Assembly (NCBI GenBank): GCA_002869065.1
Contig: PKTR01000001.1
Coordinates: 673,118-737,117, forward strand
Direction of reading: 5' to 3'
DNA: 64,000 bases
DNA from: Hyphomicrobiales bacterium
GTDB lineage: Bacteria; Pseudomonadota; Alphaproteobacteria; Rhizobiales; Rhodobiaceae
Part shown: positions 5,337-26,157 of the stretch, piece after piece
Layout of the letters: each line of letters opens with the position of its first letter
Numbering within the stretch: position 1 is the first letter of the stretch
The notes under the pieces: generated by a model
Databases searched by the model: none
What the model was told of the DNA's origin: nothing
What the model saw: only the letters and a program-made list of their open reading frames with translations
Translations under genes and position numbers: made by a program

Positions 5337-5438
5337 GCGCATACTCCGTAATTTGCGTCATCGTTTCGGCGGCTGCGCCGTCAGCGGTAGACCCCGCGCG
5401 CGCCACCCGATATGCCGGCCAAAACCGGGGAAAAAGAA

Positions 5439-5468
5439 GGCTGCGGCCGCCGCATAGCGCCCGCAGCC
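5439..5468 (-). terminator. Terminator-like hairpin between soxA and soxB
   Basis: A perfect 8-bp GC stem (GGCTGCGG / CCGCAGCC, loop of 14) is followed on the minus strand by TTCTTTTT, the form of an intrinsic terminator. It lies inside the sox run, downstream of soxA and upstream of soxB. Confidence 0.65.
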
Positions 5469-5478
5469 TGAAATGTGA

Positions 5479-5505
5479 AACCGGCTGAGAAATCCCCAGC
5501 CGGTT
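5479..5505 (-). terminator. Second hairpin downstream of soxA
   Basis: A perfect 9-bp stem (AACCGGCTG / CAGCCGGTT, loop of 9) lies 14 bases beyond the soxA stop and is followed on the minus strand by TTTCACATTT. It may protect the soxXYZA mRNA 3' end or help terminate. Confidence 0.55.
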
Positions 5506-5519
5506 CCCGTACCGTTGTT

Positions 5520-6410
5520 CTACTGGCGAACCGCCGGCGTCTCGACCGAGAGACCGGTGCCGCGCCAGGCAACGTAGACCTCAAGCGCCAGAAGCTCGTC
5601 CGACATCGGCTTGAACGGAACCGCGCGGGTGTCGCGGACGCAGCCCTTGAAGCGGGCATGGGTCAGCACGATACCCTGGCTCTTCAACCGATAGGTCGGG
5701 AAGCCGTTGATCTGGCCCTGGCTGAGATGGTCGGCACGAATGTACTTGCCGTAGTTGATCTCATGACAGCTTGCGCATGACAGTTCGAGCTGGCCGTAGC
5801 GGGTGTAGTAGATGTCCTTACCCTGATCCCACCACTTCTGCATCTCGCCCTTTTCCAGGTCGAGCGTGACCGGCATGCCGCGCGACTGATGCCGCACATA
5901 GGTCACCATCGCCTTCTGATCGCCGGAGTTGAACTTGTAGGGCTTGGCACCCATCCGCTCCGTACGGCAGAGATTGATCTGCATTTCCAGATTCACCGGC
6001 TTGCCGGCACCCTCGTTCCACTTCGGCATGGCGGCACCGACGCCCTTCATGCTCTCCGAAGCGTCACCGTGGCACGACTCGCAGGACTTGCCCGCGTCGC
6101 CGTCAAACTTCGACCAGAGTTCTTCGCCCTGTTCCACCGCCAGCATACCCGGGTTCTGGAAGTCGTCCAGCTCCAGAGCCTGGGTCTCGCGGGTGCGGTA
6201 TTCGAAGCCCGAAATCACTTCGTCGAGCGGATGCCCCTTCGGCGACTTCGTATGCGTGGTGATCGGGCCGTGGCCCTCGATGCTCGGCAGACCCGGCATG
6301 CGCTTTTCGTCGTGGGCAGCCTGGGCGACCGTAACGGCACCCGCAATGATGCCGGCAGCCGCAAGAGCCGTCACGCCCCAGAAAGTCCGATTGGTTTTTT
6401 TATCATTCAT
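5520..6410 (-). CDS. soxA: Diheme cytochrome SoxA
   Basis: Catalytic subunit of SoxAX, which oxidatively joins thiosulfate to the SoxY cysteine. It has an N-terminal export signal (about 1-31) and two heme-binding motifs, CESCH (C110-H114) and CASCH (C212-H216), so it is the diheme form. The conserved cysteine in GCVRDTRA (C257) matches the catalytic cysteine ligand of heme 2 known from SoxA structures. The ATG at 6410 follows GGAGG at good spacing. Gene order X-Y-Z-A is intact, with 63 bp from the soxZ stop. Identification is firm. Confidence 0.96.
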   Translation of the reverse strand: MNDKKTNRTFWGVTALAAAGIIAGAVTVAQAAHDEKRMPGLPSIEGHGPITTHTKSPKGHPLDEVISGFEYRTRETQALELDDFQNPGMLAVEQGEELWSKFDGDAGKSCESCHGDASESMKGVGAAMPKWNEGAGKPVNLEMQINLCRTERMGAKPYKFNSGDQKAMVTYVRHQSRGMPVTLDLEKGEMQKWWDQGKDIYYTRYGQLELSCASCHEINYGKYIRADHLSQGQINGFPTYRLKSQGIVLTHARFKGCVRDTRAVPFKPMSDELLALEVYVAWRGTGLSVETPAVRQ

Positions 6411-6473
6411 TGTGTGCGCTCCTCCCCCCTCGATGCAGCGCTTGCGATCGAGGGCCTTTCGCTAACGGCTTTC

Positions 6474-6800
6474 TCAGTTGACTTCGATCGCCTGCTCTTT
6501 GGAGTAGACCGTTCCATCGTCGTCCACCCAGCTGAACTTGAAGGTACCGGACTCTTCGACCTTGACGGAGAATTCGATGTACGGATTCGCCGAAACCGCC
6601 GGGTCCAGATCCGCCGAGAACACCGGGGTGCCGTTGAACTCGCACGTGAACTTGTTGATGATCTTGCGCGGGATCGGCGAACCGTCCTTGTTCTTGCGCT
6701 GGCCGGACTCCATCTTGTGGCTGATCAGCGTCTTGATCGTGATCACCTCACCCTTGGAAGCCTTCTTCGGCACCTTGATACGCGGCTTTCCGTCTGCCAT
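6474..6800 (-). CDS. soxZ: Sulfur carrier partner SoxZ
   Basis: SoxZ (108 residues, usual size) forms the SoxYZ heterodimer that carries sulfur intermediates in the periplasm. The opening PRIKVPKKASKGEVITIKTL and the beta-rich Ig-like pattern ending in the VEVN-like IEVN are typical. There is no signal peptide; SoxZ is known to be co-exported with Tat-exported SoxY. The ATG follows AGAGGGAAAC. It lies 35 bp after soxY. Confidence 0.95.
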   Translation of the reverse strand: MADGKPRIKVPKKASKGEVITIKTLISHKMESGQRKNKDGSPIPRKIINKFTCEFNGTPVFSADLDPAVSANPYIEFSVKVEESGTFKFSWVDDDGTVYSKEQAIEVN

Positions 6801-6835
6801 TTGCGTTTCCCTCTGAAAATTCTGTGTTGTTCTGT

Positions 6836-7288
6836 TTAGCCGCCGCAGCCGCCGATCGTGACCTTCACGGTCTTGGCATCCATGTACGTCGAGCCGTCCT
6901 TCATCTTCGCAATCGCGATGACGCGCTGGGTCTTGGCCAGACGAATACGGGTCGAGGCGTTCGCCGAACCGCTCATGGCGGAGAAGTTGAAGGTCGCAAC
7001 CGCCGGGCTCGGATTGCCCTCGGCGAGAACCATGACGGCCGCCACGTGGTCATCAGCAGTCATCGGGCTGTCGACGGTGAACGACACCGGCACAGTGTTG
7101 CCGTTCTCGGCGATTTCCGGAGCGTCGAGCGTGACCTTGCCGGTCGCCGGTTCGGCACCGCCGGTGAACGCCTTGATCATTTCGTCAGCCTTGCCTTCGG
7201 CAAAAACGACCGGAACCGAGCCGATCATCGCCAGCGAAGCCGCACCGGCGCCCAGCAGAAGCGCCTGACGTCGCGTGAAAGTGGTCAT
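6836..7288 (-). CDS. soxY: Sulfur carrier SoxY
   Basis: Carries the covalently bound sulfur intermediate of the Sox cycle on a C-terminal swinging arm. The protein ends in GGCGG, whose Cys is the attachment site. The N-terminus is a Tat signal (FTRRQALLLGAGAASL). I place the start at the ATG at 7288 because GGAGAG stands 8 bases before it and because a longer frame would add 16 residues ahead of the twin arginines. The result is 150 residues, the family's usual length. It is followed by soxZ. Confidence 0.95.
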   Translation of the reverse strand: MTTFTRRQALLLGAGAASLAMIGSVPVVFAEGKADEMIKAFTGGAEPATGKVTLDAPEIAENGNTVPVSFTVDSPMTADDHVAAVMVLAEGNPSPAVATFNFSAMSGSANASTRIRLAKTQRVIAIAKMKDGSTYMDAKTVKVTIGGCGG

Positions 7289-7338
7289 GAGATATCTCTC
7301 CTCTTTGAGAAGTCGTTCAGTGCCGTGCAAATGCACGC

Positions 7339-7782
7339 CTACTTGAGGGTTTTCAGGAAGGCGATCACGTCCTCGACCTGCTGCGGGGTCAGGATCGACT
7401 TGCCTTCGAGATCTTCGCGCACCCGGATGAAACCGGACGTCTTCATGAAGGACGGCATCACCGTGCCTTCGAAGATCTGCTTTGCGTCAGTGACGATGAG
7501 ACGAAGCTGCTCTTCGCTGTAACGCTCGGCAACACCGTTGAGCGCCGGGCCGACCTCGCAGTGGAACGGCTGGTCCTGGAGCACGGACACCGCATGACAG
7601 GCAAGACAGTTGCCCAATTTGCGGTTGACCATGATCTTGCGACCTTCGTCCGCATTGCCCGCCTGCTCGGTGTGCGGCTTTGCGATGCCATGATCGACGA
7701 CTTCGTAGGCCGCATTGGCACCCGACATCGCACCGAAAGCCATCACCCCGGCCGCGACAAGTGTTTTCCATGTAGATTTCAT
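7339..7782 (-). CDS. soxX: Monoheme cytochrome SoxX
   Basis: Electron-transfer subunit of SoxAX. It has a signal peptide (about 1-24), one heme motif CLACH (C59-H63) and MPSF, whose Met109 is the likely distal ligand. The overall length of 147 residues is on the short side but within the family. Odd feature: a further cysteine, C75 in HCEVGPAL, where the SoxX proteins I recall have Gly. The gene heads the X-Y-Z-A run, and a 28-bp palindrome lies upstream. Confidence 0.95.
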   Translation of the reverse strand: MKSTWKTLVAAGVMAFGAMSGANAAYEVVDHGIAKPHTEQAGNADEGRKIMVNRKLGNCLACHAVSVLQDQPFHCEVGPALNGVAERYSEEQLRLIVTDAKQIFEGTVMPSFMKTSGFIRVREDLEGKSILTPQQVEDVIAFLKTLK

Positions 7783-7932
7783 CGGCGCTTTCCTATCCCC
7801 TCTGATTTCCTCGTGTTTTCACGATTGTTGCCGATCCTGCTGCGCCGCTCCGCAGCGTGCCGTTCAAATTTGGTCCGCCCTTATACTTATCTCACGTTCC
7901 GAAATCCAGACAATCACGTGTTTTTTATCTTT

Positions 7933-7960
7933 GCGTATTTTCGAATATTCTTAACTACGC
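7933..7960. promoter_or_regulatory. Candidate SoxR operator in the soxW-soxX gap
   Basis: A 28-bp palindrome, GCGTA-N5-GAATATTC-N5-TACGC read on either strand, is symmetric about the centre of the 8-bp core; 11 of 14 positions per arm pair. It overlaps the last bases of soxW and lies about 150 bp before soxX. In studied alphaproteobacterial sox loci the ArsR-type SoxR binds the soxW-soxX gap and the soxS-soxV gap, so the location fits. Confidence 0.55.
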
Positions 7961-8532
7961 GCTCGTCTGACATATTTTCGGAAGCTCTCCGCCTCATACG
8001 CTTTTTCTTGTACGTACCTGAACATCGCCAGGAAGTGCGGCGGCTTGAGGTACCCTGCCGCCCGCGTGACCTCCCGATCGCCCGCCGCCTTGTCCGCCAG
8101 TCCGTCCGCGCTTTCCGGAAAAAACTGGAACGTCGGCGTGAAACGGATGCCGTATTTCCGCGCCAGGTCCTTTTCCGACAGGACCTCGCCGTCGAAATCC
8201 GTGACCCGCTTGGACCCGATGATGTTGAGCTGCAGCACGTCGAAGTTCTCGCGCACGAAGCGATTGATCTCCGCGTCGGCAAAATTTACGAAATGCGTTT
8301 CTTTGCAGTATGGGCAGCCTTTCAGCTCCCACATGATCGCGAACCGTTTTCCGGCATCCGCAGCCGTGCTCAAATCGTCGGCCAGTTCCAGGAAACTCTC
8401 CAGGAACCATGGCTGACGATGCAGACCATCTTCGGTAAGTGTCGGCGGCTCGATTTCCGCGGCCCATAGAGATGGCGCAGAAAACAGCGAAAAAGCCATT
8501 GAGCCGAGCACTGCCTCACGGCGCGTGATCAC
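7951..8532 (-). CDS. soxW: Periplasmic thioredoxin SoxW
   Basis: Thioredoxin-fold protein with the active site CPYC (C73-C76) inside WELKGCPYCKETH, typical of SoxW. It receives reducing power from the membrane protein SoxV and keeps Sox components reduced. An N-terminal export signal is seen (TRREAVLGSMAFSLFSAP). The start is taken as GTG at 8532 behind GGGGGAAAC; an upstream GTG at 8547 would add five residues. In Paracoccus-type clusters soxV and soxW are adjacent; here a gene of opposite orientation separates them. Confidence 0.9.
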   Translation of the reverse strand: MITRREAVLGSMAFSLFSAPSLWAAEIEPPTLTEDGLHRQPWFLESFLELADDLSTAADAGKRFAIMWELKGCPYCKETHFVNFADAEINRFVRENFDVLQLNIIGSKRVTDFDGEVLSEKDLARKYGIRFTPTFQFFPESADGLADKAAGDREVTRAAGYLKPPHFLAMFRYVQEKAYEAESFRKYVRRARS

Positions 8533-8673
8533 TCGTTTCCCCCTCACGGAACCGGTTTCGGCTTACCGCCATTTTTTCCGGTCGTTTGTTCTCATATGTT
8601 AAAACACTGATATATTATGTCGCAGGACGCAAGCCCCAAGACCAAATTTATCGCCAAACGAGGAACGCCAGTC

Positions 8674-9402
8674 ATGAAATTACCAACGCTCGCCGCCCTC
8701 GTGTTCGGCTCCGCCATACTAGCGGCGGCTCCCGCCCATAGCGGTGAAACCGGTGACTTTCTCGATGGCATCGAAGCCGCTTTCGCCAGCTACCGGGAAG
8801 CCGCAAGCTATCTGAGGACCGGCAACGTCGATCTCGCCGCCCTGCAGCTGGAGGACATGGCCGAGACCTGGTCGGCGCTGCGCGAACGATTCGAAAAGAC
8901 CCCGCCGGAGAGCTTCGTGGACAATCCGCTTTTCGCATCGACAATCGCTGATACCGGCACGGCGATCAAGGCCGCACTGAACGCCATCGACACCGACGAC
9001 GCCAAAGCGGCGGCGAAAGCACTCGCCCCCATTCCGACGTCGATCGGAGGCATGCGTCGCGCCAGCGGTTTTTATCGCATGGGCGACTGCATCGCCGACG
9101 CTGGAAAGGCGATGGACGCGTTGTTCGTGCACAAGACGACACCGCCCGACCTGACCGATCGCACCGTCGCGGCCGACGTCATCGCCAAGGGTGCCGTCTA
9201 CGCCTATGTGCTGAAAAAATGCGACGCGATGGCGCCGCAAGCGATGCGCGGCAATGACGAGTTCCGCCGCCTGTTCGATGGTGCCGACGCCAGCCTGGCG
9301 CGCATCCCCGAAGCCGCGAACACCGAAAACGGCAACCTTCTCTACAGGCTGCTGATCGAGCTGAAATCCTTCGATCGACTGATCTTCTTCCGCTTCGGCT
9401 GA
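8674..9402 (+). CDS. Unknown exported helical protein inside the sox locus
   Basis: I do not recognise a family. The 242-residue product starts at an ATG behind AGGAACG and has a clear Sec signal (KLPTLAALVFGSAILAAAPAHS, residues 2-23). The mature part looks almost wholly alpha-helical, with patterns such as LQLEDMAETWSALRERF that recall four-helix-bundle proteins like cytochrome c'. However, there is no CXXCH heme motif. Only two cysteines remain in the mature part (C139, C183), a possible disulfide pair. It is divergent from soxW and converges on soxV, with a good terminator, so it has its own promoter in the soxW gap. A role with SoxV/SoxW in the periplasm is inference. Confidence 0.8.
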   Translation: MKLPTLAALVFGSAILAAAPAHSGETGDFLDGIEAAFASYREAASYLRTGNVDLAALQLEDMAETWSALRERFEKTPPESFVDNPLFASTIADTGTAIKAALNAIDTDDAKAAAKALAPIPTSIGGMRRASGFYRMGDCIADAGKAMDALFVHKTTPPDLTDRTVAADVIAKGAVYAYVLKKCDAMAPQAMRGNDEFRRLFDGADASLARIPEAANTENGNLLYRLLIELKSFDRLIFFRFG

Positions 9403-9458
9403 GACACCGCTCGCACGGGCGTAGCGGGAAGCCCGATCAAGCTGCGCCAGCCCAACGA

Positions 9459-9487
9459 AAAACCGGCCCCCATAGGAGGCCGGTTTT
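9459..9487 (+). terminator. Terminator after the exported sox-locus protein
   Basis: A 10-bp stem (AAAACCGGCC / GGCCGGTTTT) is followed by GTTGTTT on the plus strand. It lies between two convergent genes and can also serve soxV from the other side. Confidence 0.75.
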
Positions 9488-9512
9488 GTTGTTTCAGGCC
9501 TGTTCGGACGGA

Positions 9513-10292
9513 CTATTCGCCGCCGAAGATCCCGAGCATCTTTTCTTCGAACTGCTGAATCCCCGGGAAGGTCTCCAGCATCCAGGCACCTGCCTCGGCG
9601 CTCCACTGGAAGAAATCGCCGGTGAGGAACAGGATGCCGACGATGATCAGGAAGGCGCCGACGACCTTCTCGATGATTCCCATATGCCGGCGCAGACCCT
9701 TCATCATGCCGAGGAAGTAGTTGGTGAACCAACCCGACAGGATGAACGGAATACCGAGGCCCGCCGAGAACAGCGCAAGTAACAGCACCCCTTCCCAGAC
9801 AGAATCCTTCGTTGCGGCCAGGTTGAGGATCGTCGCCAGAACCGGACCGACGCAGGGCGACCAGGCGAAACCGAAGGCGAGACCGACGAGATAGGCACCG
9901 ACATAGGTCGCCTGCCCCGTATTGACGTTGAGGCGCGCTTCCTTGGCGAGAAACCCGATGCGGAAAATGCCGAGGAAGTGCAGGCCCATCACGATGATGA
10001 TGATGCCGGCGATCATCTCGAACATGCCGCGATAGGCCTGAATCATCTGGCCGAGCGCGGTGGCCGTCGCCCCCATCAGCGTGAAGATCGTCGAGAAACC
10101 GAGCACGAAAAGGAGCACCGAAAGGAACACCTTCTTGCGCGAAACCTTGACGTCCTCGTTGGTCGTCAGCTCGTCGAGCGACACACCCGCGACGTAACAC
10201 AGATACAGCGGCACAATCGGCAGAACACAGGGCGACACGAAGGCGATCAGACCGCCGAAAAATGCCCCGAGATAGCTGACGTCAAATCCCAT
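9513..10292 (-). CDS. soxV: CcdA-type thiol-disulfide membrane transporter SoxV
   Basis: Six-helix inner-membrane protein of the CcdA/DsbD family that carries electrons from cytoplasmic thioredoxin to periplasmic thioredoxins. The two redox cysteines sit in FVSPCVLP (helix 1) and WSPCVGPVL (helix 4). The ATG at 10292 follows AAGGAAC. Its position, divergent from soxS in the sox locus, marks it as SoxV serving SoxW/SoxYZ rather than the general cytochrome c maturation CcdA, though it could do both. Length is 259 residues, slightly longer than a minimal CcdA. Confidence 0.9.
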   Translation of the reverse strand: MGFDVSYLGAFFGGLIAFVSPCVLPIVPLYLCYVAGVSLDELTTNEDVKVSRKKVFLSVLLFVLGFSTIFTLMGATATALGQMIQAYRGMFEMIAGIIIIVMGLHFLGIFRIGFLAKEARLNVNTGQATYVGAYLVGLAFGFAWSPCVGPVLATILNLAATKDSVWEGVLLLALFSAGLGIPFILSGWFTNYFLGMMKGLRRHMGIIEKVVGAFLIIVGILFLTGDFFQWSAEAGAWMLETFPGIQQFEEKMLGIFGGE

Positions 10293-14116: not shown

Positions 14117-16909
14117 CTAGGCCGCAGCCGTTTGCCGCCGTGTGGTGCCGGCCCGCGAGCGCTGCAGCCAAACCACAAGCGCAAGCACGAGCAGCGCCGG
14201 GATGAACATAAGATATTTGGTTGGCTGGCTGACCGGCTTCAAGACCTTCAGCACCTGCTGGTCCCAGTCGAGTCCGGCTTCCTTGGCCGCCGAATTGAAG
14301 GCAGCGTCGTCGATCAGGATCTTGTCGCCATCGGTGCGCAGCGTGAGGCCCGCCTTCTCGATACGTTCCTCACCCGTCGCCAGGCTGGTATCGACGGGCA
14401 GCACCGCGACGAACTCGATCGGGTCGCCGACATCGTTGAGGCCGCTGACCCGCAATCTCAGCTTCTCGCCCTCGGGAACACCAGCCGCCGCTTCCGTGAT
14501 CATCGCCGGCGCAACCTCCTCAAACGGTGGCGCCATCATGTCCATCCAGAAGCCCGGACGGAACAGCGTGAAGGCAACGAGCAGCAAGGCGATGGATTCC
14601 CAGATCCGGTTCTTCGTCAGGAACCAGCCCTGCGTCGCGGCGGCGAACAATAACATCGCCACCGTCGCGACGATGAAGATGCCAATCCCCTGCACGATGC
14701 TGACATTGATCAGCAGCAGATCGGTGTTGAAGATGAACAGGAACGGCAGCGCGGCCGTACGCAGCGAATAGAAGAACGCCACGAAGCCGGTGCGGATCGG
14801 GTCGCCGCCCGAAACAGCGGCCGCCGCAAAGGATGCCAGCCCCACCGGTGGCGTCACGTCCGCCATGATGCCGAAATAGAACACGAAGAGATGCACCGCG
14901 ATCAGCGGCACTATGAGCCCGTTCTGCTGGCCGAGCGTGACGATGACCGGCGCGAGCAGCGCCGAGACGACGATGTAGTTCGCCGTCGTCGGCAGACCCA
15001 TGCCAAGGATCAGCGACAGGATCGCGGTCAGGAACAGGATGGCGAGGATATTGCCACCCGAAAGCACCTCGACAACTTCGGCAAGCGCCGAGCCGACGCC
15101 GGTCTGGCTGACCGCGCCGACGATGACGCCGGCGGTCGCGGTCGCGATGCCGATGCCGATCATGTTGCGCGCGCCCGAAATGAGCCCGTTGAAAAGATCG
15201 GTGAAACCGCCGCCGAACTCCGTGCCGAGATCGCCGCTCTTGCGGAACATCGCCATCAACGGTCGCTGCGTCAGCAGGATCACGATCATGAACGCCGTCG
15301 CCCAGAAGGCGGAAAGGCCGGGCGACAGACGGTCGACCATCAGCGCCCAGATCAGCACGATCACCGGCAGGAGATAATGCAGGCCGGCACGGGTCGTCGG
15401 ACCCGGCTCGGGCAAGGTCAGGATCGGCGCGTTCGGATCGTCGAGCTCGAGCGGCGGCTGCTTCGACGCCACATAGAGCAGAGCGAGATAGACCGCGAAC
15501 AACAGCGCGAAAACGATGTAGCCGGCGGTATCCGGGAACGCGGTCCGGATCCAGCCCATACCGTAGTAGACGCCGAACGACAGCACGCTGACCACCACGA
15601 TGCCGAACACGAACCCGACCAGGCGCTGCACCCAGGGCTTCGGCGCGACCGCGCGCGGCAACCCTTCCATCCCGGCCTTCGAGGCCTCCAGATGGACGAT
15701 ATAGACCAGCGCGATATAGGAGATCAGCGCCGGCAAGAACGCGTGTTTGACGACGTCGAAATACGGAATGCCGACATATTCCACCATCAGGAACGCGGCA
15801 GCACCCATCACCGGCGGCATGATCTGACCATTGACCGAGGATGCGACCTCGACGGCACCGGCCTTTTCCGCCGAAAAACCGACTCGCTTCATCAGCGGAA
15901 TGGTGAATGTGCCGGTCGTCACCACATTGGCGATCGACGAGCCGGAAATGAGCCCGGTCGCGCCCGACGACACCACGGCGGCCTTCGCCGGTCCGCCTTT
16001 CATGTGTCCCATGAACGCGAAGGCCACCTTGATGAAATAGTTGCCAGCACCGGCGGTATCGAGCAACGCGCCGAACAGAACGAACAGGAAGACGAAGCTT
16101 GTCGACACGCCAAGCGCGATGCCGAACACGCCTTCCGTCGTAACCCAGTGGTGGTTGATCACCTCGCTCAGGCTGTTGCCTTTGTGCGCGATAATGCTCG
16201 GCATGTAGGGCCCGAGGAAAGTGTAGACCAGGAACGCGGTGGCCACGACCATCAGCGCCGGGCCGAGCGAGCGCCGCGTCGCTTCCAGCAGAATCATGAT
16301 GCCGACGACACCGACAATGAGGTCCTGCATGATCGGCGCGCCGGGACGTTCGGCAAGCGCCTCGTAGAAGGTGAAGAGATAGGCCGCGCAAAAGGCACCG
16401 ACGATGGCAAGCGCCCATTCCCAGGGCGGAATGCTGCGATGGGGCGAGCCGAGCAGAATCGCCGCGATGAGGCCAACCACCGGGATGGCGATTATCCAGA
16501 CGGGAAGGCTTCCTTCGGCACCAACGCCGAACAGGATGCCGAGCACAATCGGAACGCCGATACCCAGCGCAAGCTGCACCGGGGTGCGCGCGGCCGGATA
16601 GGCGAGAAATGCGAGAAAGACTGCGAAGGCCAGATGAATGGAGCGCGCCTCGGTGTCGTTGAAGACGCCGATGCCGACCATGAACGGGAGCGGCGAGGCA
16701 AACCAGAGCTGGAACAGCGACCAGGCGAGCGCGACAGCGAGAATAAGCTTTCCGGTCAGGCCCGGCGGGGTGCGTGCACCAGTATCAGCGGATGCGACGA
16801 TGTCGTCGAGCTCGTTCTGACTCAAACCGCCGTGGCCGGAGCCTTCCATTTCAACGCGCGCGGCCTGTTGCTGAATGCTGTCGTCGCGATTGTCGTCACC
16901 ATTCGCCAT
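14117..16909 (-). CDS. TRAP transporter fused 4TM-12TM permease (TAXI type)
   Basis: Inner-membrane permease in which the small (DctQ-like) and large (DctM-like) subunits are one 930-residue chain, usual for TAXI systems. After a polar start there is the first helix set, then the DctM-like core with GLISGSSIANVVTTGTFTIP and GMGLPTTANYIV. A soluble DUF3394-like domain follows near residues 790-890, and a last helix ends the protein. The ATG follows GGGGAGGGC. It sits between the TAXI binding protein and the Usp gene in one operon. Two long open frames on the other strands here are shadows. Confidence 0.94.
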   Translation of the reverse strand: MANGDDNRDDSIQQQAARVEMEGSGHGGLSQNELDDIVASADTGARTPPGLTGKLILAVALAWSLFQLWFASPLPFMVGIGVFNDTEARSIHLAFAVFLAFLAYPAARTPVQLALGIGVPIVLGILFGVGAEGSLPVWIIAIPVVGLIAAILLGSPHRSIPPWEWALAIVGAFCAAYLFTFYEALAERPGAPIMQDLIVGVVGIMILLEATRRSLGPALMVVATAFLVYTFLGPYMPSIIAHKGNSLSEVINHHWVTTEGVFGIALGVSTSFVFLFVLFGALLDTAGAGNYFIKVAFAFMGHMKGGPAKAAVVSSGATGLISGSSIANVVTTGTFTIPLMKRVGFSAEKAGAVEVASSVNGQIMPPVMGAAAFLMVEYVGIPYFDVVKHAFLPALISYIALVYIVHLEASKAGMEGLPRAVAPKPWVQRLVGFVFGIVVVSVLSFGVYYGMGWIRTAFPDTAGYIVFALLFAVYLALLYVASKQPPLELDDPNAPILTLPEPGPTTRAGLHYLLPVIVLIWALMVDRLSPGLSAFWATAFMIVILLTQRPLMAMFRKSGDLGTEFGGGFTDLFNGLISGARNMIGIGIATATAGVIVGAVSQTGVGSALAEVVEVLSGGNILAILFLTAILSLILGMGLPTTANYIVVSALLAPVIVTLGQQNGLIVPLIAVHLFVFYFGIMADVTPPVGLASFAAAAVSGGDPIRTGFVAFFYSLRTAALPFLFIFNTDLLLINVSIVQGIGIFIVATVAMLLFAAATQGWFLTKNRIWESIALLLVAFTLFRPGFWMDMMAPPFEEVAPAMITEAAAGVPEGEKLRLRVSGLNDVGDPIEFVAVLPVDTSLATGEERIEKAGLTLRTDGDKILIDDAAFNSAAKEAGLDWDQQVLKVLKPVSQPTKYLMFIPALLVLALVVWLQRSRAGTTRRQTAAA

Positions 16910-17040
16910 TTTGCCCTCCCCGGCAAAACCCGTTGCCCGCGATCCGTACCGTCCTGTTCCCCAACGTAGACGGAAGGATCACTGAAGTCCCAATGCGTGT
17001 GCGGAAGCTTCCGCGAAAGTCAAAACTGGAAAGAAGAAAG

Positions 17041-17067
17041 GACGGGCGGAGCAACGCCCCGCCCGTC
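17041..17067 (-). terminator. Hairpin between TAXI binding-protein gene and permease gene
   Basis: A 9-bp stem (GACGGGCGG / CCGCCCGTC) is followed on the minus strand by CTTTCTTCTTTCC. It lies between the binding protein and the permease. A partial terminator at this place commonly keeps binding protein in excess. Confidence 0.6.
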
Positions 17068-17079
17068 GAAGGGAAGGAC

Positions 17080-18045
17080 TTACATCCAGCCCTTTTCCTT
17101 GTAGTACTTGACAGCGCCGTCATGCAGCGGAGCCGACAGCGACTTCGAGATCATCTCGGCTTCGTTGAGGTTGCCGAACGCCGGATGCAGCTTCTTGAAG
17201 CGACCGAAATTGTCGAACACAGCCTTGACGATCTGGTAGATCGTGTCTTCGTCGGTGTTAGTCGACGACACGAAGGTCGCGCGCACACCGAACGTTTCGG
17301 TGTCGGCATCCGAACCCTTGTACATGCCACCCGGAATGACGGCCTTCGAATAGAACGCGTTGTCGCCGACCAGCTTGTCGACTTCAGCGCCGGTCACAGA
17401 AACCAGAACCGCGTCGCACGAGGTGGTGGCTTCCTGGATCGAACCGTTCGGATGGCCGACGGTGAAGACGATGGCATCGACCTTGTTGTCGCACAGCGCC
17501 TGCGCCTGCTCCGACGACTTCAGCTCCGAAGCGAGCGCGAAATCGTCCTTCGTCCAGCCCTTGGCTTCCATCAGAACTTCCATGGTGCCACGCTGGCCCG
17601 AACCCGGGTTACCGATATTGACGCGCTTGCCCTTCAGGTCGTCGAAGGTCTTGACGCCGGAATCGGCGCGCGCAACGACGGTGAACGGCTCCGGATGGAC
17701 CGAGAACACCGCCCGCAGGCCTTCGAACTTGCCGGCATCGGCGAACTTCGAGGTGCCGTTATAGGCGTGGTACTGCCAGTCCGACTGGGCCACGCCCATG
17801 TCCTGGTCGCCCGCCTTGATGGCGTTCAGGTTGGCCACCGAGCCACCGGTCGACGGCGCGGTGCATTTGATGTTGTGCGTGCCCGTGCCGCGATTGACGA
17901 GCTTGCAGATCGACTGACCGACAACATAGTAGACACCGGTCTGCCCGCCGGTGCCGATGGTGACGAATTTTTCTTCGGCGTTGGCGGCCGAGATGGCGCT
18001 TCCAAGCGTAAGCGCGAGTGCGGCGGCCAGAACACGTTTCGACAT
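17080..18045 (-). CDS. TAXI-family TRAP solute-binding protein
   Basis: Periplasmic binding protein, 321 residues, with a signal peptide (SKRVLAAALALTLGSAIS, about 2-19). The TAXI opening FVTIGTGGQTGVYYVVGQSI gives the family; several TAXI proteins bind acidic amino or organic acids. The start at 18045 follows AGGGAGGA, while a longer frame would add 18 residues without signal. It is the first gene of a minus-strand operon with permease, Usp, aminotransferase and BKACE. It faces a divergent RpiR regulator. Confidence 0.93.
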   Translation of the reverse strand: MSKRVLAAALALTLGSAISAANAEEKFVTIGTGGQTGVYYVVGQSICKLVNRGTGTHNIKCTAPSTGGSVANLNAIKAGDQDMGVAQSDWQYHAYNGTSKFADAGKFEGLRAVFSVHPEPFTVVARADSGVKTFDDLKGKRVNIGNPGSGQRGTMEVLMEAKGWTKDDFALASELKSSEQAQALCDNKVDAIVFTVGHPNGSIQEATTSCDAVLVSVTGAEVDKLVGDNAFYSKAVIPGGMYKGSDADTETFGVRATFVSSTNTDEDTIYQIVKAVFDNFGRFKKLHPAFGNLNEAEMISKSLSAPLHDGAVKYYKEKGWM

Positions 18046-18120
18046 AAAGTCCTCCCTCAAGGAAAATACCCATATACGGAAGTCGCATTCCATACACATG
18101 TTCGGAGCTTGTCAATCACA

Positions 18121-18155: not shown

Positions 18156-18200
18156 GCTTTCCAGCAGATGGCAGGTTCAAGGCGAGCGGGGATCGTCAAC

Positions 18201-19094
18201 ATGGCGCAAGGTTCTGAAAACCCGAACTTAATCTCTCTTGACGGTTTGCGCCGTGCACTTCGCGATAGGTTGCACCTGCTCAGCCCGCAGGTCCTTCGAG
18301 CGGCCATTTTCGTCCTGGAAAACCCCGCACGTGTTGCGTTTTCTTCCGTACGCGGTCTTGCGGACGAGGCCGGGGTCAATCCGGCGACCATCGTTCGCCT
18401 GGCGAAAATCGCCGGTTTCGAAACCTTCAAACCCTTTCGCGATGTCTTCCGTGAAGCCGTGGGATCGAACGAGGTACATTACGGCGAGCGCGCCGCCGCC
18501 CTGCTCGGCCCGACCAATGCCGCAGAACCCGATCTCGCGATCCGCATTGGAGAAACGGCGATCGGCAATATCGGCACGCTGTTTCAGCCCGAGACACGCC
18601 AGACGATTCGCGATGCGGCCCGCGCGCTCGTCGGTGCGAGGCGGATCTTTGTCGCCGGCTTCCGCAGTTCCTACGCCCTTGCCTATTACTTTGCCTACGC
18701 CGGCCGCATGGCTTTTCCCGGCATCCGGCTCGCGCAGGCGAGCGGCCTGCCGATCTCCGATGAACTGGCCGAAATGGAAACCGGTGACGCGCTCTTCATC
18801 GTCACTTTCAGCCCCTACTCGCAGGAGGCCTTGAAGGCGACCGAGCTGGCACGAACCCTCGGCGTGACCGTGGTTATCGTCTCAGACAGTTTCACCGCGC
18901 CGGTGACGCGCGGCGCCGGCCACGTCATCGAAGTGCCCATGGCCGGTCCTCAATATCTGCCGTCTCTGGTTGCCGGCACGGCAGCCTGTGAGGCGCTTCT
19001 GGCTGAAATGGTGCAAATCGCCGGAGACCCGGCGATCACAGCAATCGAAGCCTTCGAGAAACGCGTGCGCGCAGTCGGCAGCTACACCGAGTGA
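18201..19094 (+). CDS. RpiR/MurR-family regulator (HTH + SIS domain)
   Basis: Transcription factor with an N-terminal RpiR helix-turn-helix (SSVRGLADEAGVNPATIVRLA, about residues 45-65) and a C-terminal sugar-isomerase (SIS) domain, which in this family binds phosphorylated or other small effectors. I place the start at the ATG at 18201 after GGGGAT; an in-frame ATG at 18168 lacks a ribosome site. It is divergent from the TAXI-TRAP operon and probably controls it. Effector unknown. Confidence 0.88.
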   Translation: MAQGSENPNLISLDGLRRALRDRLHLLSPQVLRAAIFVLENPARVAFSSVRGLADEAGVNPATIVRLAKIAGFETFKPFRDVFREAVGSNEVHYGERAAALLGPTNAAEPDLAIRIGETAIGNIGTLFQPETRQTIRDAARALVGARRIFVAGFRSSYALAYYFAYAGRMAFPGIRLAQASGLPISDELAEMETGDALFIVTFSPYSQEALKATELARTLGVTVVIVSDSFTAPVTRGAGHVIEVPMAGPQYLPSLVAGTAACEALLAEMVQIAGDPAITAIEAFEKRVRAVGSYTE

Positions 19095-19282
19095 GGCAGC
19101 GAATTCGCCGTTCTTCACGACGGTCATTCGGCAAAGGCGCACGTCGCCCGCCCTTGTCGCCGACAGAACGAAACCCGCTGTGCCGAAATGCAGCCTGACG
19201 TCGCGTCATCGAGTTTGCTACTGTGGGTGAAGGTCGTTCATCTGTTCCGGCCACTCGCGTTTGCGCCAAGGCGGATTGTTCC

Positions 19283-21436
19283 GTGTTTCCCGATCTCTCG
19301 CCACATCCCGACGCCCCCCTCGAATGGTGGTTCTGCCACGGGTCGCTGGGCGGCGACGCGGTCGAGCGCATCGACTTCATGCTCTCGCTCTTCCGCCACA
19401 ACTCGGCGAGCGACGGCGACGATGGGCATATGCTCATCATCTCGGTGTTGAATGACGGGGATGATCGCTCGTCGTGGCGCAGCGAGGTCTCCCCACGCCT
19501 GATCGAGAGCTTCATTGCCGACACGCCGCAAGACTACGGCACTCTCCCCGGAACGCGCCATCTGGTCCAGGCGCTGGTCGATGAAATCGCGGCCAACGGA
19601 ATTCCGACGCCTTTCAAGGATGCCGGTAAACCAACCCGCTGTGACGTCGAACGCCTTTCCATACGCTGGAACGATTTCGCGCTCCGCGAAGACGGCAACG
19701 AAATTGCGATCGGCTTCGACCTCCCCGGCGCTCAGCAACACTGTTCGCTCCGTCTGACCCCACATTCGCCATGGCTTCTCGAACCCGGTGACGGAGCCTT
19801 CCGCTTTGGGTCAATGGCCTACGAAAGCTGCCCACGCCTGACACTCCACGGCGATATTGACGGCGCGGCGATCACCGGCGAAGCGTGGTTCGATCACCAA
19901 TGGGGCGAGCTCTCCTGGACGCATGGCGAGGGAGACGAACCGCAGACATTGTCATGGGATTGGCTCGGCGCACGCTTCGACGACAGTTCCGCGCTCATCG
20001 CCTGGCAGAGAAAAGCTCGCCAGACCGGAGAGATTGTTCACAGCAAGGCAATTTTGTTCGAGCCGGGAAAGGCGCCAGTCACATTCGACGATGCCGTGAT
20101 GACGCCCGAGCGCCAATGGCGCAGCACCGCGAGCATGATCGACTATCCGGTCGAGATGCGTGTCGAGGTTCCCGCGCTCGGGCTAGATGTCGTATTCGCA
20201 CCCACAATCGACGCTCAGGAAATCCCCGTCTTTGGCGTCATGGCGGCGATCTGGGAGGGCACCGGCCGCGTCGCGGGCACCCGTGTGGGCACATCTGTGT
20301 CCGGCACAGGCCGGCTTGAATTGCAGGGATACGGCAATCTCCTTGATGTTCGAGAAACGCAGAAACGCTGGGTCGAGCGGATCGATGCAACGCTGCGCGC
20401 TTTCCTGCCGGAAAAACTGTCCGAGCAGAGCCTCACCGAGATCGCCGGTGCGCCACGCTGGGCGTACGACCCCCACGCGCAAACTGCGATGCTGTCGGAG
20501 CCGGTGTGGGACCTGCTCAATCGCGGTGGCAAGCACTGGCGGCCGATTTTCGGCTTCCTGCTGCTCGATGCCCTCGGCACGGACCCGACGCCTTACGAAA
20601 CCCTCGTGTCGGTCATTCCCGAGCTAATTCACAACGGCTCGGTGATCATCGACGATATCGAAGATGGGTCCGACACCCGCCGGGGCGACGCGACCTTGCA
20701 TCGGCGCTACGGCGTGCCGACCGCGATCAACGCCGGCAACATGCTCTATTTCCTGCCGCTTCTTTCTCTGGAGGAACACCCGCATTTGTCGGTCGACCAA
20801 CGCGAGGAAATCTACCGCGTTCTCGTCCGCACCTTTGTCCGGGCTCATATCGGACAGGGGCAAGATCTCTACTGGTCCCACCCCGAGCACTCCAAGGACC
20901 GCGATTTTTGGCTCGCCCCGGAACTTGGACCGCAGATCCTGCAAGCCCACGCGTTCAAGACCGCCGCGCCGCTCAGCGCCATTTCCGAAATTGCCTGCAT
21001 CATTGCGAGGGCGCCTGCCGATACGCGTGCGGCCTGCGCTCGCTTCGCGGAAAATCTCGGCGTCGCCTTCCAGATCGTCGATGACGTCAACAATTTCACC
21101 ACGCGCCCCGAATGGGGAAAGGTGCGCGGCGAAGACATCGCTGCCGGCAAGGCCTCCTACGCGATCTTCAAGGCGATAAGCCTGTTGCCGCCCGCCGAGC
21201 GCGACCGGCTCGTCAAACTTCTCTCGGACACATCCGAACGCACGTCACCCGATGGCCTCGCCGCAGGTCTCGACCTGATGGAACGGTCGGGCGCCTTCGA
21301 CGCTTGCCGGAACGAGGCCAAAGCCCTGGTCGAAGAGACGTGGCCGGCGTTCTCCGCTGCCGTCAACCAGACCCAGGGCAAGGTCGTCCTGCGGCTGCTG
21401 ATCACCAACCTGCTGAACCTGCCGCTCGAGATGTAG
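19283..21436 (+). CDS. Fusion of CrtC/AttH lipocalin-like domain and polyprenyl diphosphate synthase
   Basis: A two-part isoprenoid protein of 717 residues. The N-terminal half (about 1-360) carries CrtC/AttH hallmarks: PLEWWF at residues 12-17 and WFDHQWGE near 202-209, as in carotenoid 1,2-hydratase relatives. The C-terminal half (about 400-717) is a trans-prenyltransferase: GGKHWRP, then the first Asp-rich motif DDIED (457-461), GQGQDLYW, and FQIVDD. The second Asp-rich motif is altered to DDVNN (600-604) where DDxxD is usual. The start is GTG at 19283 behind AAGG; GTG 19223 would add 20 residues. The gene stands alone between an RpiR gene and tRNA-Ser. Product unknown; a prenyl chain made and then hydrated is one idea. 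Confidence 0.85.
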   Translation: MFPDLSPHPDAPLEWWFCHGSLGGDAVERIDFMLSLFRHNSASDGDDGHMLIISVLNDGDDRSSWRSEVSPRLIESFIADTPQDYGTLPGTRHLVQALVDEIAANGIPTPFKDAGKPTRCDVERLSIRWNDFALREDGNEIAIGFDLPGAQQHCSLRLTPHSPWLLEPGDGAFRFGSMAYESCPRLTLHGDIDGAAITGEAWFDHQWGELSWTHGEGDEPQTLSWDWLGARFDDSSALIAWQRKARQTGEIVHSKAILFEPGKAPVTFDDAVMTPERQWRSTASMIDYPVEMRVEVPALGLDVVFAPTIDAQEIPVFGVMAAIWEGTGRVAGTRVGTSVSGTGRLELQGYGNLLDVRETQKRWVERIDATLRAFLPEKLSEQSLTEIAGAPRWAYDPHAQTAMLSEPVWDLLNRGGKHWRPIFGFLLLDALGTDPTPYETLVSVIPELIHNGSVIIDDIEDGSDTRRGDATLHRRYGVPTAINAGNMLYFLPLLSLEEHPHLSVDQREEIYRVLVRTFVRAHIGQGQDLYWSHPEHSKDRDFWLAPELGPQILQAHAFKTAAPLSAISEIACIIARAPADTRAACARFAENLGVAFQIVDDVNNFTTRPEWGKVRGEDIAAGKASYAIFKAISLLPPAERDRLVKLLSDTSERTSPDGLAAGLDLMERSGAFDACRNEAKALVEETWPAFSAAVNQTQGKVVLRLLITNLLNLPLEM

Positions 21437-21864: not shown

Positions 21865-24800
21865 CTAATATTCGGATTCGTAGAAGATTCCGACACCGGA
21901 ATCCGTCTGCCCCGCCTGCCCCTTCAGCTTCAGCCCCTTGGTGATGTCGAGATTGATCGAAACCGAGGACTCCTCGCCCGCCTGAACGCCGAGATAGACG
22001 TTGTCGCTGAGATAGGTGCCGGCCTTGACCGCAGCCTTGCCGTTCTTGTCCTCGACCACATCGAGATCGTCGAGGCCGGTGCCCTTGCGGATCTTGTCGA
22101 GCACACCCGACACACCGCCACGCCCGCTGAGCTGCGCCGCCGCATCGGCCAGCCGGGCAAGCTGGAAGGCGGAGAGTTCATCGACACTGCGCCCGAACAG
22201 AAGCTGCGCCAGCACCTCGTCCTGCGGCAGTTCCGGCTCGGACGAGAACACGATATCAGGGTCGGACGCCGGGCCGGTGACCGAGATGGTGACGGTCAGA
22301 CCGTCGCGCCGCGTCGTCGCGACAAATTGCAGATAGGGGTCGAAATCACCGGCCAGCGTCACCTCGCCGCTGGTGAATTCGACACGCTTGCCGAGCATGT
22401 CGATGCGCCCGCGCACCATGGTGAACCCGCCTTCGGGAACCAGGTCCGTGTCGCTGCCGCGCAGCCTGATGCTGCCGCGCATTTCCGCATCGAGCCCGCG
22501 CCCGCGAATGAACAGCCGTGCCGGGGCCTCGATCACCAGATCGATGCTCGCGCCGATCCCGCGCTGGCCCCGCGCCTTGTCGCCAAGCAGACCCGCATTG
22601 GCGAGCGTACGGCGCACATCCGCCGGTGTATCGGCGTGGCGGACATCGATCATCGCCGCCCCGCCGGGCAGCGATTTCGGCACCATGATTTCGGTACGTT
22701 CCAGAATGATCCGCCCACCGATCACCGGACCGCGCAGCAATGCGCCGCCCAGCGTCAGCGTGCCGCTGGCGGTCGCCGCAGCCAAATCCCCGTCGGTGTA
22801 ATGGGCGTTCTGCAGGTCGAGCCGGAGATCCGCCGGCAACGTCAACGCGTCATCGATCTCAAGCGACCCGGAGAGCGTCGCCGTCCCCTTGCCGAGCCGC
22901 GCCCGCACCGTCTCAAGCCGCAGCCGCCGCCCCGCGACGCCGATGCGGATATCCATGTTACGCAGGTCGATCCCGGTCGCCGGATCGCTGAAGGCAACGC
23001 CCTGCCCGCGGATCGAGCCGTTCAGATCCGGGCGTTGCAGCGGCCCGGTGACCGTTACGTCCAAGGTAAGCGTACCCGACAGCCACGCTCCGCGCGGATC
23101 GAGCCAGCGCTTGGCAAGCGACAGCGGCACCGTGCCCCGAACCGGCACCGACAGCGAGCCACCGGTAAGCGGAATGGTTCCGCTCGCCGCCAGTTCCAGA
23201 CCATTCCCCGAAGCGCTCGCGCGTTCGAGTGTGACAGTGTTCTGCCGATGAACGCCCTTGGCACTGACGCCAAGCGGACCGACGCCGGCCTCCGCAAGCG
23301 CCGCAGCCGACACGCCGCTCGCCTTGATATCGAAGCGCGTCTCCGGGTCTCCGCTCGGTCCGCTGACAACGACCGCACCGGTCGCACTGCCCTTGAGGCC
23401 GAGCGAGGGCGCAAACGCATTGGCGAGCGCCAGCGGCAGATCCCGGATATTCGCCGTCACATCGATGCGCTCACCCGATGTCCCGCTGACCACCACGCGC
23501 CCGGCGCAGGCATGCAGTTCGAGCGGATCGATACTGATCTTGTCACCGGCGACCGTCAGCGTGCTTGGGCGGACGAGCTTCACATCGGCGACGCCGCGCG
23601 TCAGGCTAAGCTTGTCGAGCCCGACCCTGTAGCCGCCGTCGACGGCTGCGAGAACCGCATTGGCGCTGAGATGTCCCGCTACGAGATCGGCCTCAAGACC
23701 GAACCGCGTCGCGCCGTTCTCCGGCTGCGCCTTCAGCGTGCCCGAGCGAACCACGATGCTGCCGGCGCGGAGATCGGCGAAGGCGACGTTGCCCGCAACC
23801 TCTGGCACGGCATTAAGCCGGTCGAGCGTGACATTGCCCTTGGCAGACCCGACCCGTGTGTCGCCAAAGGCGAGCCTTGCCGCGTCCAGTGCGATTTGCG
23901 CGCGCTGGTCATTGTCGGCGCGCGAAAGCTCCACCGTCGCATCAAGCCGCCCGGACATTTCGGTCATGGCGAGGGCCGCGACATCGCGCAAATCCGGCGC
24001 GACCACGTTCAGCGTGCCCGATGCGATGTCGTCACTATCCAGTTCGACGCCCCCGCGAGCGCCGGCACTGCCGACATTAGCCACAATATCCCGTACGGCG
24101 CGCACGCCCTCGGCGCTTTGTGAAAGTTGCGCGGTCGCGGAGACGAGTTCGCCAGCAAGCCGCCCGCGCAGATTGACGTCGCCGGCAAAGGCGTCGTTCT
24201 CAAGCCGCCCGTGCAGCGTCGCCGTCGCCTCGTTGAACGGCTTCCCGGCAAGCGTTAGCGCCTCGCCGAGCACAACGACGGAGATATCCGCCGCCGATCC
24301 CGGTCCCTTAACGCTGCCCTGCAGGTCCGCGGCGCCACCGAGGCGCGGATCGAGCGCGGACGCATCGGCCAGTCGCCCGCTGAAAGCGAGATCGGAGCCC
24401 GCCTTGCCGGCGGAGCCATTTGCTTTCAACGAAAGCTGCTTATTGGTGAGCGTGAAATCGCGGAAGCCGATGAGGTCCTCCGTCCGCTCGACCGAGCCGC
24501 TGAGCTGGGTCTCGCCCTTGAACAGGCCCGGCACGGCGCCCGGGTTCAGATCGCGGGCGCGCCCGTTGACGAGGATCGCAACATCGCTGCCGTCAAAGGC
24601 GATCTTGCCACGCGCAGCGAGCCCCAGCGCGCCGCCGAGCGACCGGCCCGCGAGCGCGGAAAATGCCGAAAGATTCCCGGAGCTGAATTGATAGGTTCCA
24701 TCCGTGGAGTCACTTGCGATGGAACCCTTGAAGCCCGCCTCGAAGGCTTTGCCGCGAACCCCCGACGCCATGATTTTGACCGGCCGGCCGGCACTCCAGC

Positions 24801-26157
24801 CACCCATGGCCGACAACGCCGGGCTGTCGCCGAACGCCTCGGCAATGGCCGCATCCGGCGTGGCGAGGCCGGTTGCCTGGCCACGAATATCGAAAGTGAT
24901 CCCGCGCCCCTGCGGATCGGACAGGTCACGCGCCATGCCCGCGCCGGTCACGGTCAGATTGCCGAGTTGCAGCGTTCCGCTCTCCAGCTCGTCGAGCTGT
25001 GCCGACAGCGTCCAGTTGTCACTGCCTTCTCCGAGCCTGAGCGCGATCGAGCCACGGCGAACGGTAACATCGTCGCCGGCAAGCGCGACCGGCCGGTCTT
25101 CGCCGGTGTCGAGTTTCGCGTCCGCAACGATCCTGGTTGGGAAGCCGTCGGTCGCGGTGGCAACATCGGCGTCGAGTGCAAGCACGCCGGACTGAAGGTT
25201 GACGTCCGCATTCGTCTTGCCGTCGCTCGCCCGAGTGGCATCAACCTTCAGGCGTGAGCCACCGGCAAAGAGATCGCGGTAGTCGTCGGGGATCAGCGGC
25301 TGAAGATTGCCGTCGAGATCTGCCACGACGCGCATGCCACCATCCGGCCGGCTGAGGGCCACCTTGCCGGCAAGGAGCCGCTGACCCGCCGCATCAAGCG
25401 TGATATCGGCGGAGAAATCCGCAACCGGCCCCTCGCCCCTGGCGGAGAAATCGAGTGCCGGACGCCCCTCGATACCGAGCAGGTTCGACAGCAGCCCGTT
25501 CTGATCTTCGTGAACGCGGATATCGGCGTTGATGTAGTCGCGGCCCTTGTCATAGCCGAGCTTCAGCGCGATCTCGGCGGGCACATCTAGTCGGCGGATC
25601 GCCAGATCGCTGGCAAGCGACCCGTCTCCAAGCGAAAACGACCCGGCAAGGTCCAACGCCGCCGCAATCCCTGCGACCGGCTCGCCGAGTTCGATACGCT
25701 TTAGCGTCAGCTCGCCGATGTTGATGGCGACCGGTGTGTCCGGCAGGGCGAATTCGCCATTTTCCGGTATATCGGGTGCTTCGGCCTTGTCCATTTGCGG
25801 ACGGCGCCGCATCGAAACCCGATCCGCCGTGAGACTGTCGACGTCGAGCCTTCCGCGCAACAGCGCCAGCCGGCTCCAGACAAGGTGCGGGTTCTCGATG
25901 CGCAGCCATACGCCGCTGCGGTCGGCAATGGTGATTTCCGAAAAGCGCACGTCGGACGACAGCGCGCCGTCGATCTGACCGAGCCGGATCTGCATGTCCG
26001 GCGTCGAAATCTGCTCCTCGATAAAGCGCTGGAAGCGGCCGGTCTCGTCGTCATCGGCAAAGGTCAGCGCGCCAAGCACCGCAAGGGCGGCGAAAAACAC
26101 GCCCGCAAACACCGCAATGGCTTTGAACCGAAGAGGTTTATGGACGAACGCAACCAT
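21865..26157 (-). CDS. tamB: Translocation and assembly module protein TamB
   Basis: Very large (1430 residues) inner-membrane-anchored periplasmic protein of the AsmA/TamB bridge family. It has one N-terminal transmembrane helix (AIAVFAGVFFAALAVLGALTF, about 14-34) and then a long beta-rich repetitive body. The C-terminal DUF490 domain ends in GIFYESEY, like the usual YE-x-Y end. With TamA it supports outer-membrane protein insertion and lipid transport. The ATG overlaps the tamA stop by one base (TGATG), so the genes are translationally coupled. Confidence 0.94.
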   Translation of the reverse strand: MVAFVHKPLRFKAIAVFAGVFFAALAVLGALTFADDDETGRFQRFIEEQISTPDMQIRLGQIDGALSSDVRFSEITIADRSGVWLRIENPHLVWSRLALLRGRLDVDSLTADRVSMRRRPQMDKAEAPDIPENGEFALPDTPVAINIGELTLKRIELGEPVAGIAAALDLAGSFSLGDGSLASDLAIRRLDVPAEIALKLGYDKGRDYINADIRVHEDQNGLLSNLLGIEGRPALDFSARGEGPVADFSADITLDAAGQRLLAGKVALSRPDGGMRVVADLDGNLQPLIPDDYRDLFAGGSRLKVDATRASDGKTNADVNLQSGVLALDADVATATDGFPTRIVADAKLDTGEDRPVALAGDDVTVRRGSIALRLGEGSDNWTLSAQLDELESGTLQLGNLTVTGAGMARDLSDPQGRGITFDIRGQATGLATPDAAIAEAFGDSPALSAMGGWSAGRPVKIMASGVRGKAFEAGFKGSIASDSTDGTYQFSSGNLSAFSALAGRSLGGALGLAARGKIAFDGSDVAILVNGRARDLNPGAVPGLFKGETQLSGSVERTEDLIGFRDFTLTNKQLSLKANGSAGKAGSDLAFSGRLADASALDPRLGGAADLQGSVKGPGSAADISVVVLGEALTLAGKPFNEATATLHGRLENDAFAGDVNLRGRLAGELVSATAQLSQSAEGVRAVRDIVANVGSAGARGGVELDSDDIASGTLNVVAPDLRDVAALAMTEMSGRLDATVELSRADNDQRAQIALDAARLAFGDTRVGSAKGNVTLDRLNAVPEVAGNVAFADLRAGSIVVRSGTLKAQPENGATRFGLEADLVAGHLSANAVLAAVDGGYRVGLDKLSLTRGVADVKLVRPSTLTVAGDKISIDPLELHACAGRVVVSGTSGERIDVTANIRDLPLALANAFAPSLGLKGSATGAVVVSGPSGDPETRFDIKASGVSAAALAEAGVGPLGVSAKGVHRQNTVTLERASASGNGLELAASGTIPLTGGSLSVPVRGTVPLSLAKRWLDPRGAWLSGTLTLDVTVTGPLQRPDLNGSIRGQGVAFSDPATGIDLRNMDIRIGVAGRRLRLETVRARLGKGTATLSGSLEIDDALTLPADLRLDLQNAHYTDGDLAAATASGTLTLGGALLRGPVIGGRIILERTEIMVPKSLPGGAAMIDVRHADTPADVRRTLANAGLLGDKARGQRGIGASIDLVIEAPARLFIRGRGLDAEMRGSIRLRGSDTDLVPEGGFTMVRGRIDMLGKRVEFTSGEVTLAGDFDPYLQFVATTRRDGLTVTISVTGPASDPDIVFSSEPELPQDEVLAQLLFGRSVDELSAFQLARLADAAAQLSGRGGVSGVLDKIRKGTGLDDLDVVEDKNGKAAVKAGTYLSDNVYLGVQAGEESSVSINLDITKGLKLKGQAGQTDSGVGIFYESEY

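Follow-up and report, generated by a model that had tools for sequence, protein, structure and literature searches.

A bacterial gene joining an AttH-type lipocalin domain to a type-III-like geranylgeranyl diphosphate synthase, with a possible role in making an exported isoprenoid lipid

The stretch of DNA analysed here, called the window, comprises 64,000 nucleotides from a Hyphomicrobiales bacterium (assembly GCA_002869065.1, contig PKTR01000001.1, positions 673,118 to 737,117 of the forward strand). It contains a gene that fuses an AttH-type lipocalin domain (the N-half) to a domain resembling type-III geranylgeranyl diphosphate (GGPP) synthases (the C-half). The reading frame runs uninterrupted from a GTG codon at 19223 to a stop at 21436 on the plus strand (737 codons in the open reading frame translation), and a second in-frame GTG, at 19283, is its codon 21. 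This second codon is the likelier start, because the putative ribosome-binding site AAGGCGG lies 8 bases upstream of it and because residues 1-19 are the sole run of at least three residues with a predicted local distance difference test (pLDDT) score below 50 in a structure model of the 737-residue protein. Residue numbers are counted from GTG 19223, and conservation counts refer to 24 aligned fusions. The features of the gene are as follows.

19283..21436, plus strand: fusion gene, AttH-type lipocalin domain and type-III-like GGPP synthase; 717 amino acids from GTG 19283
19268..19274, plus strand: candidate ribosome-binding site AAGGCGG, read by eye
19283..20338, plus strand: N-half, AttH-type two-barrel lipocalin, residues 21-372, from Pfam and fold comparison of the model
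19322..19333, plus strand: E34-W35-W36-F37 motif (E, W and W in 24/24, F in 23/24)
19892..19906, plus strand: D224-H-Q-W-G with the proposed acid D224, aligned with the CrtC aspartate (by spacing D268 of RgCrtC) and with WYDRQWG of kievitone hydratase
19955..19963, plus strand: W245-x-W247, proposed cation-stabilising pair, aligned with W-x-W of CrtC (by spacing W283/W285 of RgCrtC)
20348..21433, plus strand: C-half, trans-prenyl synthase fold, residues 376-737
20651..20665, plus strand: first Asp-rich motif DDIED, residues 477-481 (three Asp in 24/24)
20747..20752, plus strand: Y509-F510, equivalents of Tyr107-Phe108 in the chain-length floor of yeast GGPP synthase
20846..20848, plus strand: H542, equivalent of His139 in the same floor
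21080..21094, plus strand: second motif DDVNN, of the DDxxN type, residues 620-624

A sequence-only reading of this gene had described a single frame joining a CrtC/AttH domain to a polyprenyl synthase, and this description is borne out by three Pfam matches, all above their cut-offs. From N to C terminus these are CrtC (PF07143, residues 142-229, 48.6 bits, cut-off 22.5), Lipocalin_9 (PF17186, residues 241-370, 67.4 bits, cut-off 26.2) and polyprenyl_synt (PF00348, residues 423-671, 163.5 bits, cut-off 27). The four hallmarks it named (EWWF, WFDHQWG, DDIED and DDVNN) are all present in the translation. Structure prediction gives the N-half a two-barrel AttH-type fold and the C-half a trans-prenyl synthase fold, and the model is confident across the junction between them. 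The top NCBIfam row for the fusion, an encapsulin cargo model, scored 117 bits, far below its cut-off of 450, and was dropped.

To count other genomes with the same fusion, some 85,000 species genomes were scanned; 412 stretches were confirmed by tblastn, and 80 loci were kept. Full-length fusions, spanning nearly the whole query, account for 23 of these 80. They occur in Alphaproteobacteria, Planctomycetota, Omnitrophota, Aminicenantes, Thermodesulfobacteriota, Actinomycetota, Ignavibacteriota, Balneolota and Bryobacterales, that is, in Alphaproteobacteria and at least seven further phyla. Three of the 23 come from named isolates (Bauldia litoralis, Desulfatitalea alkaliphila and Sinisalibacter aestuarii). 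Most of the remaining genomes are metagenome-assembled, and misbinning is possible in single cases; one 'Planctomycetota' member (L057) clusters with alphaproteobacterial fusions in the tree. Further cases lie on plasmids. A Streptomyces canus plasmid encodes a fusion of 747 amino acids (28% identity over 96%), a plasmid of Tolypothrix PCC 7601 encodes one of 1509 amino acids, and a second Tolypothrix plasmid (PCC 7712) shows a search match over the same part. No literature on this fusion or its function was found in the PMC papers searched.

Within its range the fusion is rare and scattered. The full-length relatives found in its order and class, six in number, align with it at 41-54% identity. 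At an E-value of 1e-25 the full-length fusion is present in 6 of 397 genomes of the order, the window's own included, and one genome of that order (G050) has relatives of the N-half only. In the class draw it is found in 2 of 385 genomes, again counting its own, and it was not found at 1e-30 in either of the other two genomes of the window's genus. Under a strict cut-off, the phylum of the Aminicenantes member gives 1 of 149 genomes and that of the RBG actinobacterium 1 of 396, in each case only the member at the centre of the draw. In the phylum of a planctomycete member 4 of 392 genomes match, comprising two fusions (the draw centre and G1693) and two standalone synthases like the C-half. 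Because full-length relatives recur in the order, the class and many phyla, the fusion is neither a chance event nor a joining error; it is real and old.

Five S. canus plasmids (NZ_CP107991.1, NZ_CP108180.1, NZ_CP108228.1, NZ_CP108300.1 and NZ_CP107987.1) match only about residues 529-722, within about 5 kb of a record end at low positions. In NZ_CP107991.1 the match is an annotated gene of 717 bp. These partial matches may be remnants.

The N-half is closest to AttH, with kievitone hydratase next. The AttH family (NE1406, PDB 2ich) has the same domain pair, PF07143 followed by PF17186. Unlike the fusions, the AttH proteins L120 and L121 stand alone with a signal-like start (by eye), carry DREWS in place of DHQWG and have no synthase domain. 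Kievitone hydratase (PDB 7a0q, 7a0t) is related to the N-half by fold and by sequence profile, with 13% identity over aligned residues, whereas it is a fungal single enzyme acting on a prenylated isoflavonoid. In the fusions D224-H-Q and WxW are invariant (24/24).

The relation to CrtC itself is more distant. A profile of the N-half compared with eight CrtC sequences gives a best E-value of 0.018 and an hhalign probability of 6%, and hhalign in global mode yields no useful alignment. On sequence grounds the N-half does not belong to the true carotenoid hydratases. Asp268 and Trp283/285 of CrtC have counterparts in D224, W245 and W247, in a weak local hhalign alignment with RgCrtC numbers assigned through exact pattern spacing, and Trp110 probably has one as well; a presumed link to isoprenoid chemistry is the other point in common. 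The PF07143 family, named 'CrtC', matches AttH strongly, yet neither of the two carotenoid 1,2-hydratases scanned among these eight; its name may therefore mislead annotation.

The C-half combines a PF00348 match and a DDxxD first motif, as type-III GGPP synthases do. It resembles the yeast type-III enzyme (PDB 2dh4) in its first motif, its DDxxN second motif, the small residues at positions -4 and -5 (S/A and G/A in 24/24) and the Tyr-Phe-His floor (Y 24/24, F 23/24, H 24/24). Tyr107-Phe108 and His139 are described as the floor that stops yeast GGPP synthase at C20 (PMC9729869). The product chain of the C-half is thus probably 20 carbons long. The yeast enzyme is standalone, whereas the fusion is bacterial and joined to a lipocalin, and among the rows sampled the C-half groups with two unfused Planctomycetota enzymes. 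The second motif had been called altered; it does depart from DDxxD, but DDxxN is the usual form here (23 of 24).

The history of the fusion was examined with trees of each half. In the synthase-half tree, the 17 standalone alphaproteobacterial synthases sampled are split from the 27 fusions plus two standalone Planctomycetota enzymes (support 100/99). Only 10% of bootstrap trees have a branch that separates the 27 fusions from all other sequences; in a quick tree without the two Planctomycetota enzymes, all 26 fusions fall on one side (99 in the Shimodaira-Hasegawa-like approximate likelihood ratio test, SH-aLRT). The N-half tree groups 24 fusions with five standalone AttH-like proteins (SH-aLRT 99) and leaves the Streptomyces and Tolypothrix N-halves outside on long branches. 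A single ancient fusion with later loss of the synthase in some lineages is possible, as are two separate fusion events. The two standalone Planctomycetota synthases (L188 and L189, in G1391 and G1460) have 362-367 amino acids and carry DDIED and DDILN; their resemblance to the C-half extends to its leading helices. They are possible unfused ancestors.

Neighbouring genes in other genomes include lipid-export genes at some of the loci. By BLAST clustering and by eye, the gene order is FtsX-type, LolD-type, fusion, with overlaps, at L040; fusion, HlyD, LolD-type and two FtsX-type genes at L049; and LolD-type, FtsX-type, fusion and a Lycopene_cyc-like gene at L051, the last grouped by BLAST clustering and scoring only 10.6 bits with PF18916. 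An MMPL-type transporter adjoins the fusion in L042, L043, L044, L045 and L046 (by Pfam in L042 and L045, by profile in the rest), and L044 also has LolA, an aldehyde dehydrogenase and an epimerase. A gene of the geranylgeranyl-reductase family lies near the fusion in L039 and in L034/L029, and one of the crtI family in L050. The S. canus fusion adjoins an ABC permease and ATPase.

An extreme example is the Tolypothrix PCC 7601 protein (NZ_CP064882.1, L132:10857-15386), which carries Sulfotransfer_3, a GT28/EryCIII-type glycosyltransferase, CrtC, Lipocalin_9 and polyprenyl_synt domains. An ABC exporter membrane-fusion gene adjoins it at one end, devC and an ATPase at the other. The protein looks like a pathway to a sulfated isoprenoid glycolipid contained in a single chain.

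The interpretation proposed here, at a little short of an even chance, is that of a GGPP synthase (the C-half) joined to a proton-donating isoprenoid modifier (the N-half), the two feeding exported isoprenoid lipids. Direct support extends to the fusion, its spread, the conserved residues and, by model, the fold of both halves. The protein would probably be a cytosolic bifunctional enzyme. The C-half would condense isopentenyl diphosphate with an allylic diphosphate and halt at GGPP, as homology and conserved residues suggest. The N-half, as a lipocalin of the AttH/kievitone hydratase superfamily, would bind the prenyl chain; Asp224 could protonate one of the double bonds, probably that at the chain's end, and Trp245/Trp247 with Trp35/36 could hold the cation until it is quenched, either by water (hydration) or by an internal double bond (cyclisation). 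The genes that lie beside the fusion in other genomes suggest that further enzymes may reduce, glycosylate, sulfate or oxidise the product, and that transporters of the LolD/FtsX, Dev or MMPL type may export it. The sequence-only reading, that the protein could build and then modify an isoprenoid, is partly upheld.

Several observations weigh against this interpretation. His239, Trp241 and Tyr266, which are also essential in RgCrtC (PMC4717167), are not kept in the fusions: W222 stands at Tyr266, and the aligned place has no His-x-Trp. A planctomycete fusion, L187 (G1693:C33:15887-17356, minus strand), one of the 27 in the synthase-half tree, lacks EWW and the stretch from DHQWG to WDW but keeps the synthase motifs. 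For the AttH family a structure is available, and no reaction is known to us. In the Tolypothrix protein, loss of the diphosphate, and not hydration, could supply the hydroxyl for glycosylation. The neighbour counts, made with one profile set within 5 kb at 27 fusion loci and 25 control stretches, are also to be read with care. A lipid exporter (MMPL, or LolD with FtsX) is present at 9/27 fusion loci against 0/25 controls, but 8 of the 9 supplied seeds for profiles built after inspection, so that p values are descriptive. Adding the reductase, cyclase or crtI sets gives 13/27 against 0/25. LolD-type genes alone (7/27 against 4/25) and FtsX alone (4/27 against 1/25) differ little, and four of the five MMPL loci (5/27 against 0/25) come from Aminicenantes. 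None of the counted sets is found at 14 of the 27 loci, the window's included, several of them on short contigs, and no such partner genes lie beside the fusion in the window's own branch.

The strongest rival, though an unlikely one, is a synthase coupled to a carrier: the C-half makes GGPP, and a lipocalin half without chemistry protects the chain and passes it on to membrane enzymes or exporters, a part that AttH may play in its ABC-transporter operons. In its favour, the N-half is nearest to AttH, relatives of which adjoin LolD-type ABC transporters (PMC2954199). An FtsX-type gene precedes AttH in L120/L121 (by eye), and the LolD-type transporter context at L040, L049, L051 and L056 and the loss in L187 of the presumed active site, with the rest kept, also suit a carrier. 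Against it, the invariance of D224-H-Q and WxW exceeds what a carrier needs, and the relatives in the fold comparison that have a named function (kievitone hydratase, 25-phosphosteroid lyase and pericyclases) are enzymes.

Alternatively, the N-half might not be a hydratase but a terpene cyclase started by protonation, making the protein a bifunctional diterpene synthase; this is improbable. An acid with an aromatic cage, as in squalene-hopene cyclase, has been argued for CrtC (PMC4717167), and a PF18916 gene stands beside the L038 fusion (40.2 bits) and beside unfused N-half relatives in G050. However, the nearest relative with a named function is a hydratase, and lycopene-cyclase-family genes occur within 5 kb at only 2 of 27 fusion loci. 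In G050 (contig C104) two unfused AttH-like genes, L022:2491-4553 and L023:8835-10480, each lie directly 3' of a Lycopene_cyc-family gene (PF18916, 28.3 and 26.7 bits, the lower score just under the cut-off of 27), and an MMPL-like gene (by eye) adjoins the first.

It had also been suggested that the synthase half binds rather than elongates prenyl chains. That it is such a binder, or a class I terpene synthase, is very improbable: the DDxxN motif that prompts the idea also occurs in solved GGPP synthases (2dh4 DDYLN, 1wmw DDVLN) and in the two unfused Planctomycetota relatives, and R486, R487, K579, Q617 and the aspartates of both motifs are invariant (24/24). An assembly artefact, with two genes wrongly joined, has a negligible probability and is refuted by the phylogenetic spread, since full-length orthologues occur in many phyla, including three isolates and two plasmid-bearing strains, and the model is confident across the join, against a single relative (L051) split between two frames.

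Fusions of a prenyl synthase to a domain acting on its product are found in bifunctional terpene synthases such as the Penicillium copalyl diphosphate synthase PvCPS (PDB 8v0f, 7s0m). There the partner is a class II cyclase; here it is a lipocalin-type domain, and a Pfam scan of the fusion finds no class II cyclase domain. To our knowledge, bacterial prenyl synthases are mostly known as single-domain enzymes. Their natural fusion to AttH-type domains, with both motif sets retained across distant phyla, ties AttH to isoprenoid chemistry. The rare pairing in many phyla, partly beside lipid-export genes, points to a pathway, as yet uncharacterised, for an isoprenoid lipid that is exported. The Tolypothrix form, with glycosyltransferase and sulfotransferase in the chain and ABC exporter genes adjoining, suggests that exported isoprenoid glycolipids of a new class exist. 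A more specific and more doubtful proposal is that the fusions form an undescribed family of self-contained isoprenoid-lipid starters, scattered over about nine phyla, in which a type-III GGPP synthase is fused to an AttH/kievitone-hydratase-type domain that would hydrate or cyclise the end of the newly made chain for an envelope lipid that is exported and sometimes glycosylated or sulfated. If true, this would also supply the chemistry of the AttH family.

The gene was said to stand alone, with no carotenoid genes in the window. Its own neighbours, which include a tRNA-Ser gene, have no clear link to it:

14117-18099: TAXI-type TRAP transporter
18168-19094: RpiR regulator (SIS above cut-off, HTH_6 just below)
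21865-26157: TamB

A carotenoid route in the window's genome was considered and rejected. Its sole SQS_PSY (PF00494) match is nearest HpnD and far from CrtB (254 residues scanned alone: HpnD 122.7 bits, cut-off 278.6; CrtB 42.4 bits), and neither TIGR03462 nor PF18916 finds a lycopene-cyclase family member there. TIGR03462 gave nothing in ten genomes searched, though PF18916 finds lycopene-cyclase-family genes in two of them. Each of the other two genomes in the genus has two PF00494 matches, and one of these four (247 residues scanned alone) matches phytoene synthase best, at 350 bits (cut-off 500).

Elsewhere in the window, a gene row at 3630-10292 resembles a Sox thiosulfate-oxidation cluster with a DsbD/CcdA-like gene (from N-terminal sequences, by eye). 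A second TRAP-type transporter operon lies at 38248-41178 (by eye), and each TRAP operon has an RpiR-type regulator nearby, the second at 37276-38190 (by eye).
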